Source: Gammaproteobacteria bacterium (lineage in GTDB: Bacteria; Pseudomonadota; Gammaproteobacteria; Thiohalospirales; Thiohalospiraceae). From it: a stretch of DNA of 44,218 nucleotides. Shown one piece after another: positions 22,399 to 42,175 of this stretch; position 1 is the first letter of the stretch, and each line of letters starts with the position of its first letter. The translations under genes were made by a program, and so were the position numbers. Under the pieces are notes generated by a model. That model did not search any database. It worked only from the letters and a program-made list of their open reading frames with translations, and had not been told where the DNA came from. Location of the stretch: positions 1 through 44,218 of the forward strand of contig WFVH01000083.1 in the NCBI GenBank assembly GCA_015491735.1, in the 5' to 3' direction.

Positions 22399-22470
22399 AT
22401 GGTAACTATTCAGCTCCCCCCCGAAATCCGCCATTTCTGCGTTGAAAAATGGTCATTTACACGCGCGTAA
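22399..22470 (+). other. Decoy 23-codon frame opened by the duplicated rlmH start codon
   Basis: The left copy of the target duplication AAACAATG keeps the original ATG. It now reads into the MITE for 23 codons (MVTIQLPPEIRHF and on) to a TAA. If the old rlmH translation signal still works, this short peptide would be made instead of RlmH from that site. There is no evidence that it is functional. Confidence 0.3.
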
Positions 22471-22607
22471 ACTCCCATTTTTCGCCTTGAACTGACGAAT
22501 TTCAGGGGCAATCTGAACAGTTGCCGGCTTGTTTCATACGATGCTGAATAGTTACTGCAGATGAAGCCCAATGTCGCTGATCGTTGTGGAATGGGCTGAA
22601 TAGTTAC
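22402..22607 (+). mobile_element. MITE copy B, extended form (206 bp) with 8-bp target duplication
   Basis: It starts GTAACTATTCAGC and has three right-end-like sequences: CTGAACAGTTGC (inner, about 22513-22524), GCTGAATAGTTAC ending at 22555, and a further GCTGAATAGTTAC at 22595-22607. The 8-bp AAACAATG occurs directly before the left end (22394-22401) and directly after the last right end (22608-22615), so the whole 206-bp unit moved as one. The extra 52 bases (22556-22607) are not in the other copies. It inserted at the rlmH start codon. Confidence 0.9.
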
Positions 22608-32566: not shown

Positions 32567-32718
32567 GTAACTATTCAGCTCACCCCTGAAATCCGCCATT
32601 TCTGCGTTGAAAAATGGTCATTTACAGGCGTAAACTCCCATTTTTCGCCTTGAACTGACGAATTTCAGGGGCAATCTGAACAGTTACCGGCTTGTTTCAT
32701 ACTATGCTGAATAGTTAC
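32567..32718 (+). mobile_element. MITE copy C (152 bp, complete)
   Basis: Perfect 13-bp terminal inverted repeats GTAACTATTCAGC / GCTGAATAGTTAC (the right one from 32706), central imperfect palindrome and inner end CTGAACAGTTAC at 32678-32689. It lies between two convergent genes, 8 bases from one stop codon and 21 from the other. No target duplication is visible (flanks TCGGGGGC and ATATATTG differ), so it may have arisen by recombination or lost one flank. Confidence 0.9.
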
Positions 32719-41051: not shown

Positions 41052-41927
41052 ATGTCCGTAGAACATCCAGTTGTCGCTGTGACCGGTTCCTCCGGCGCGG
41101 GTACCACCACCGTAAAAAATGCCTTTGAGCATATTTTCCATCGCGAGGGAATTACTCCCCTGGTAATGGAAGGTGACAGTTTTCACAAGTATGATCGCGC
41201 CGAGATGAAACGGGCCATCAAGGAGTATGCGGCAAAGGGCAAGACCATCAGCCATTTTGGTCCGGAAGCCAATCTGTTCGGAAAGCTGGAAGAGACATTC
41301 AAAACCTACGCTGAAACGGGAGGTTGCAAGCGCCGCTTCTATCTGCACAGCGACGAAGAGGCGGAACCTTATGGCCAGAAACCGGGTGAGTTCACCCCGT
41401 GGGAGGCGATCGAGCCCGGTACTTCCGATCTGCTGTTCTACGAAGGTTTGCATGGCGGGGTGGTCGCTGGCGATGTGGATGTCAGCAAACATGTGGATCT
41501 GCTGGTGGGAGTGGTGCCCATCGTCAACCTGGAGTGGATCCAGAAGATCTTCCGGGATCATGGGCAGCGCGGTTATGCGCCGGAAGTCATCGTGGAGACC
41601 ATTTTGCGGCGGATGCCCGATTATGTGAACTACATTACTCCGCAGTTCTCCCGCACCCACATCAATTTCCAGCGCGTGCCAACGGTTGATACCTCCAATC
41701 CGTTCATTGCGCGGGACATTCCCACCCCTGATGAAAGCTTCGTCGTGATCCGCTTCCGTTATCCCAAGGGGGTGGATTTTCCCTATCTGCTTAACATGAT
41801 CGACGGCTCTTTTATGTCGCGGCCGAATACTATCGTTGTGCCCGGCGGTAAAATGGGGTTCGCCATGGAGGTGGTGTTGACGCCTGTTATCCACGAGTTG
41901 ATTGAAAAAAAGAAAAAGAGTGGGTAA
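41052..41927 (+). CDS. prkB: Phosphoribulokinase
   Basis: Makes ribulose 1,5-bisphosphate from ribulose 5-phosphate and ATP, the step that commits to the Calvin cycle. It has 291 residues of the proteobacterial class I type. The P-loop is GSSGAGTTT at 12-20; EGDSFHKYDR and the FYEGLHGG region (walker B-like) follow. GGGAGAG precedes the ATG. The stop codon TAA is supplied by the first bases of a MITE; the pre-insertion codons were GGA TAG, so the protein is unchanged. No other Calvin-cycle gene lies in the window. Confidence 0.96.
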   Translation: MSVEHPVVAVTGSSGAGTTTVKNAFEHIFHREGITPLVMEGDSFHKYDRAEMKRAIKEYAAKGKTISHFGPEANLFGKLEETFKTYAETGGCKRRFYLHSDEEAEPYGQKPGEFTPWEAIEPGTSDLLFYEGLHGGVVAGDVDVSKHVDLLVGVVPIVNLEWIQKIFRDHGQRGYAPEVIVETILRRMPDYVNYITPQFSRTHINFQRVPTVDTSNPFIARDIPTPDESFVVIRFRYPKGVDFPYLLNMIDGSFMSRPNTIVVPGGKMGFAMEVVLTPVIHELIEKKKKSG

Positions 41928-42076
41928 CTATTCAGCCATAGTATGAAACAAGCCGGTAACTGTTCAGATTGCCCCTGAAATTCGTCAGTTCAAGGCGAAA
42001 AATGGGAGTTTACGTGTGTAAATGACCATTTTTCAACGCAGAAATGGCGGATTTCAGGGGTGAGCTGAATAGTTAC
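41924..42076 (-). mobile_element. MITE copy D (153 bp, complete) with 8-bp target duplication
   Basis: Inverse orientation of the copy at 32567-32718, near-identical, with intact GTAACTATTCAGC ends. AAGAGTGG occurs exactly on both sides (41916-41923 and 42077-42084). The left terminus GTAA gives the in-frame stop of the phosphoribulokinase gene. There is one extra G beside the outer end relative to copy C, and CGTGTGTAAAT-type changes at the palindrome loop. Confidence 0.92.
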
Positions 42077-42175
42077 AAGAGTGGATAGAAGGCGGCCGGG
42101 CAGGGTGAAACGCCGGCGTGCGCCGGCATTTCCGGCAAGAAATTCTGGAAAAGAGACATTCAGGGGATTTGAACA

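Follow-up and report, generated by a model that had tools for sequence, protein, structure and literature searches.

In Coxiella, the element QMITE2 is about 190 bp long, is flanked by 7-9-bp repeats, has a strong hairpin, occurs in full and short forms and is found mostly in 3' untranslated regions (PMC5896051). It overlaps the 3' ends of kdgK, ogt, recN, ruvB and a gene of the Fic family by 1-10 bp, and one gene has gained 33 codons (PMC5896051). The element MITEAba12 carries stops in all six frames, and one gene, fused at its 3' end to the element, takes its stop codon from it (PMC6382973). Other small mobile repeats, i.e., RU-1/ERIC, RPE of Rickettsia and Correia, change the ends of genes or lie inside them (PMC2759123, PMC2229807). 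With ISPsp10, a stop codon is created at the junction of element and target (PMC4133298).

The element described here, found in the last codon of the gene prkB of a gammaproteobacterium, resembles QMITE2 in size, repeats, hairpin, full and short forms and overlaps with gene 3' ends; the likeness is one of features and does not imply relatedness. The QMITE2 overlaps are, however, reported without a reading-frame analysis or a claim of an unchanged protein in the sections of that study that describe them (PMC5896051). The gene fused to MITEAba12 lost 398 amino acids and is called a pseudogene in the account of that fusion (PMC6382973). RU-1/ERIC, RPE and Correia, as characterized in the relevant parts of those reports, add an in-frame peptide and can remove the normal stop (PMC2759123, PMC2229807), whereas the MITE at prkB ends the protein at once. 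In the ISPsp10 case, as outlined in the source, the transposase of the element takes its stop from the target (PMC4133298), while at prkB the host gene takes its stop from the element. MITEs that overlap or truncate gene 3' ends are already known, and the new part is the proposed filter on reading frame; a search of the literature, covering excerpts of the sources, found no report of a frame bias, a frame count or a protein-neutral stop replacement by a MITE, which is not proof of absence.

A stop codon supplied by the element

The window, i.e., the whole stretch of 44,218 nucleotides that was analysed, is contig C83 (WFVH01000083.1) of a genome of 2,428,777 bases in 101 contigs (GCA_015491735.1). 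The gene prkB was called as an open reading frame on the + strand (positions 41,052-41,927) and encodes a product of 291 amino acids, which matches NF011997 at 496.7 bits (cut-off 362), i.e., phosphoribulokinase; prkB is thus a gene of carbon fixation. Its 3' end runs into a 153-bp copy of the element, GTAACTATTCAGC...GCTGAATAGTTAC (41,924-42,076, + strand), which holds no coding gene; the list of open reading frames contains none of at least 40 amino acids wholly within these positions. Read directly, the junction is ...AAA AAG AGT GG/GTAACTATTCAG...GCTGAATAGTTAC/AAGAGTGG A TAG AAGG, where slashes mark the ends of the element. The target-site duplication AAGAGTGG is found at 41,916-41,923 and again at 42,077-42,084 (both + strand, 8/8 match), and because an exact 8-bp repeat is the rule of the family, the copy in the last prkB codon is a genuine insertion. 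The present stop is the TAA within the GTAA terminus (41,925-41,927, + strand), and the displaced ancestral TAG lies at 42,086-42,088 (+ strand). When the flanks are joined without the element the gene ends AGT GGA TAG, and with the element it ends AGT GGG TAA, which is Ser-Gly-stop either way. An earlier note on this DNA had proposed that a MITE end replaces the prkB stop without changing the protein, within a span (41,910-42,090) that includes the element, and both the sequence and the 8-bp duplication agree with that proposal base for base. The same note considered insertion into a last codon to be neutral. This description fits prkB, where the protein sequence is unchanged, but it is too broad as a general statement, because a last codon completed to xxG is not always synonymous; judged from the nucleotides, the neutrality of the prkB insertion would apply at the level of the protein sequence only.

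In relatives, 80 prkB loci were found and the ends of 37 were compared. The nearest element-free relative (L153, 93% identity) has a prkB of equal length, 291 amino acids, which ends AAA GGT GGT TAG, i.e., with TAG at the same residue, and the 37 orthologues span 286-298 amino acids with variable, unconserved tails. These ends indicate that the present prkB stop is at the ancestral residue. A longer ancestral prkB with residues conserved in element-free relatives, the outcome that the earlier note had set against its own proposal, is ruled out by the end of L153.

The outer inverted repeats of the prkB copy, GTAACTATTCAGC and GCTGAATAGTTAC, are perfect over 13 nt, and the fold predicted for the whole copy has an energy of -69.6 kcal/mol (z -10.1). 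An inner left end, GTAACTGTTCAG, lies 121 nt from the right end and delimits a palindromic core (41,956-42,076, + strand) with 36-nt arms that are 81% complementary, giving one long, near-perfect hairpin; one locus (L106) has a form of 121 bp whose flanking repeat matches 8/8. The commonest length of the family is 152 bp (80 of the 108 repeat-flanked copies), and the prkB copy differs by one extra C, owing to which a left-end pattern built on it matched that copy alone. A second copy in the window, of the commonest length and without an adjoining duplication (32,567-32,718, - strand), was used as the search query. With 152-153 bp, no coding capacity, terminal inverted repeats, many copies and target-site duplications, the family has the properties by which bacterial MITEs are recognized. 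An Rfam search of the window assigned no family to the element, the sole match being a tRNA. No terminator-like sites were found in or near the prkB copy, and a role of the MITE as intrinsic terminator of prkB is ruled out for that reason. Elsewhere in the window (22,402-22,607, - strand) a variant of 206 bp, compared with the usual 152 bp, is flanked by the exact 8-bp repeat CATTGTTT and is possibly a nested or rearranged copy.

Distribution, target sites and relation to IS66

A search with the right-terminus pattern (at most three mismatches) identified 118 + 113 = 231 sites in the genome, and 0 with the reversed control. Among 37 genomes, own included, the element family is present in nine, i.e., its own, all seven others of the genus and one more of the same class (G020); in this set it is absent from all four other genomes of the taxonomic family, and 72,556 plasmid records gave no match. 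Both flanks could be read for 179 copies, and the target repeats matched 8/8 in 91, 7/8 in 15 and 0-2/8 in 53, many of the last sitting at contig edges or having the inner left end alone found. The bases adjoining the repeat are A or T in 93% of cases at -2 and 93% at +9 (symmetrised, 107 copies). Many contigs start or end inside a copy (C20:1, C21:1, C42:1, C51:1, C53:1, C54:1, and the first 151 bases of the window, 1-151), and the repeat is therefore probably what broke the assembly into contigs.

In the IS66 family, target repeats are 8 bp long and the termini, of 20-30 bp, start with GTAAGCG, according to the part of the source on these ends (PMC11946415). The MITE ends likewise begin GTAA and are accompanied by an 8-bp target duplication, but the MITE is without a transposase and its end reads GTAACTATTC rather than GTAAGCG. 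The genome holds a relic of an IS66 transposase gene (PF03050 at 36.7 bits, and DUF6444), which is truncated and is the single match to an IS66 transposase in the genome. About 270 nt before the open reading frame of this relic (L262:754; frame from 1024) is found GTAACTATTCAGCT, which is identical to the right terminus of the MITE in 14 of 14 positions and then diverges, a pattern from which we take it to be the end of an IS and not a copy of the MITE. The other end of the relic was not found, nor was any complete or intact IS66 parent element in the genome. An IS66 parentage of the MITE ends is likely rather than proven, since GTAA is common to both but the next letters differ; we infer that the MITE is moved by an IS66-type transposase. 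The sequence at L262:1749-2699 (G000:C39), which resembles what we take to be a REP-associated tyrosine transposase gene, cuts off the IS66 relic and adjoins repeats reading CACACATGGGGTCAGGTCTTG.

Reading frame of insertions at gene ends

Both ends of the element, read inwards, begin GTAA. Where an insertion leaves two bases of a last codon, the G of the element would complete the codon (xxG) and the TAA would follow as the stop, a clean gene end to which nothing foreign is added. In either of the remaining frames the element would encode a tail; read directly from the commonest ends, its length is about 5-7 residues in one frame and at least 17 in the second. It is probable, in our assessment, that purifying selection filters random insertions and that, owing to the built-in stop, insertion in one of the three frames is tolerated. 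In this scheme, a non-autonomous element with IS66-like ends would insert by 8-bp staggered cuts at A/T-flanked targets (WW-N8-WW), with insertion assumed to be blind to frame; selection would remove most of the gene-end insertions that add tails, those with a clean stop would drift, and prkB would be one survivor, with zero protein change. The name "portable stop codon" in the earlier note is apt in that GTAA does read as a stop at gene ends, but only in one frame of three.

A census covered every copy whose repeat matched in at least 7/8 positions within the stretches fetched from the genus set and G020. It gave 204 distinct insertions, 105 in the own genome and 99 in relatives; of the 204, 185 are intergenic and 19 lie within a gene. 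Gene calling relied on a home-made hexamer caller run on the flanks joined without the element, which makes the calls independent of the frame of the element. The distance d is defined as the number of coding bases beyond the junction, stop included, such that GTAA is read as the stop where d = 1 mod 3. In the first set, 13 insertions fall at d 1-40 (d = 2, 4, 4, 4, 4, 4, 5, 7, 12, 25, 25, 34, 37). The genomes G020 and G004 contributed 16 further insertions (21 of 30 loci with a repeat, five of them already counted), which added one case at d = 13 and brought the totals to 220 repeat-flanked insertions, 14 of which fall within the final 40 nt of a gene. One copy that appears under two locus numbers (L026 and L043) was counted once. 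The locus L257 was excluded from the 14; its d is 1 if one of its repeat copies is the ancestral one and 841 if the other is, with the stop frame both ways. An all-ends phase count with 7/10 in the stop frame was set aside, as its filters missed prkB and others.

The count of stops made by GTAA, which the earlier note had suggested as a check, came out at 11 of the 14 gene-end insertions in the fetched copies (P = 6.9e-4 against 1/3; P = 1.5e-3 against a motif-weighted 0.361), a limit of 40 nt having been chosen after the data had been seen and n being 14. Leaving out prkB, the case that raised the question, gives 10/13 (P = 1.6e-3 and 3.3e-3, respectively). In the control region, 0-60 nt downstream of stops, the d mod 3 classes 0/1/2 hold 29/21/27 insertions, i.e., 21/77 in the stop frame, and the difference between the 14 gene-end and the 77 downstream insertions has P = 4.3e-4 (Fisher; 9.7e-4 without prkB). 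More than 40 nt deep in genes, 1/5 are in the stop frame. With other limits, all without the case at d = 13, the stop frame has 6/9 if d is capped at 12 (P = 0.04 for 1/3, 0.06 for 0.361), 10/14 if it is capped at 100 (P 0.004-0.008) and 11/18 if every insertion inside a gene is taken (P 0.014-0.027).

Coincidence would mean that, among hundreds of copies, some strike a stop in a lucky frame with no filter beyond a general avoidance of genes. Four protein-neutral cases out of 204 are not many, stop codons are as rich in A/T as the sites that the element prefers, and the frame test is weak at d 1-12 alone (P 0.04-0.06); yet the 11/14 stands against 1/3 and a motif-weighted expectation of 0.30-0.36, the downstream control is unbiased, and the positions d = 3 and d = 8, whose motif weight is near or above that of d = 4, have 0 insertions. 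We therefore regard coincidence as unlikely.

Less likely still is a bias that arises at insertion, with a transposase that prefers a sequence or state at stop codons (e.g., X/TAG). Five insertions are at exactly d = 4, where the motif share is 0.14 (5/8 at d 1-12, P = 0.002, a position picked after the data had been seen), and four of these five are at TAG, which accounts for 116/408 stops. When the insertions at d 1-12 are scaled by motif weight to those at d -12..0, two are out of frame against 10.4 expected (P = 0.002) and six in frame against 4.4, which reads as a pure filter. Scaling to d -60..0 gives two out of frame against 5.8 expected (P = 0.07) and six in frame against 2.4; this reference allows some excess at stops and, with its weaker out-of-frame deficit and its in-frame excess, is compatible with some contribution from targeting. 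The motif weights are heavy-tailed, and d = -9 stands out. The frame is, however, also kept by the insertions at d = 7, 13, 25, 25, 34 and 37, away from the stop, where a preference for a DNA target is blind to frame.

Positive selection, i.e., retention of copies as a hairpin after the stop that stabilises the 3' end of the mRNA or acts as an insulator, is highly improbable: the hairpin is very strong (z -10.1) and, of the 3' ends of adjacent genes, 75/166 are no more than 50 nt from the insertion, compared with 33/159 of the 5' ends, but promoter avoidance alone yields a 3' excess and the prkB copy has 0 terminator-like sites in or near it.

The sequences, the duplications, the target motif and the frame bias are direct observations, and we infer that the bias was made by selection rather than by targeting; the filter by purifying selection is favoured because a stop-codon target leaves unexplained the insertions that keep the frame at d = 7 to 37. 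The terminal letters of an element can thereby decide which insertions survive, and at gene ends an insertion in one of the three frames would do almost no harm, since the element brings the protein to a clean end. For any element end that reads as a stop this gives a simple, testable rule, i.e., that gene-end insertions be counted by frame. It also advises caution in annotation, as C-terminal ends and stop codons that adjoin repeats may be derived from elements. A further suggestion, which we consider doubtful, is that the GTAA terminus was itself selected as a built-in stop; lineages of IS66-type elements and their MITEs in which both ends read as stops in one frame would then be less harmful at gene ends, reach higher copy numbers and shape C-termini genus-wide.

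Effects on other proteins

The interpretation of the prkB swap holds and extends to other genes, a modest but clean result with small n. The protein is kept at four genes, i.e., prkB, apbC/mrp (L143), a gene that by eye we take to encode an ion channel (L352) and, as read now, ntrB (L041); NCBIfam confirms ApbC and the nitrogen regulation protein NR(II). At apbC/mrp, AAA-TAG became AAG-TAA with the protein the same. Among seven relatives, apbC ends IVVEK-TAG at the same Lys codon in three and at the same position with Arg in one, and runs 1-5 residues further in three. In L352, from the relative G006, AGA-TAG became AGG-TAA, again with the same protein. The gene ntrB ends GGG-TAA today. Its two repeat copies differ, and in G003, G004 and G006 the ntrB stop is preceded by GAT GAG, so that GAG may have stood there both before the insertion and just after it; perhaps GAG-TAG became GAG-TAA, followed by one later substitution to GGG.

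Other insertions changed the protein. Two genes were shortened by one residue, L299 (presumably modC-like; TAT became TAG) and L043 (presumably an aminotransferase, both named by eye), and five have a net loss of 3-11 residues (L412, L057, L268, L251 and L325). Three were lengthened: L052, by eye presumably asnB-like, with 19 residues added, L065 with one lost and seven added, and L078, a weakly scored gene, with three lost and 17 added. The 19 residues added in L052 and the seven in L065 show that tails can survive. Over 538 gene ends (open reading frames of at least 200 codons), conversion of the last codon to xxG would be synonymous at 428, while at 19 it would turn that codon itself into a stop, as happened in L299.

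A few of these loci have features of their own. The copy in L052 (L052:3299-3475, G000:C27) is 176 bp long, has a tandemly repeated terminus (GTAACTATTCAGGTAACTATTCAG...) and lies in the asnB-like stop codon in the wrong frame. At L257 (G004:C100), the repeat is not identical on the two sides (TATTTCTG / TGTTTCTG), and with the d = 1 reading the insertion cuts a TAA stop and the element's own TAA serves as a back-up stop. The insertions L299:1371 (G006:C58) and L043:1354 (G000:C19) are found where convergent genes apparently overlap at their 3' ends, and in the L299 pair one gene keeps its own stop while the other loses one residue.
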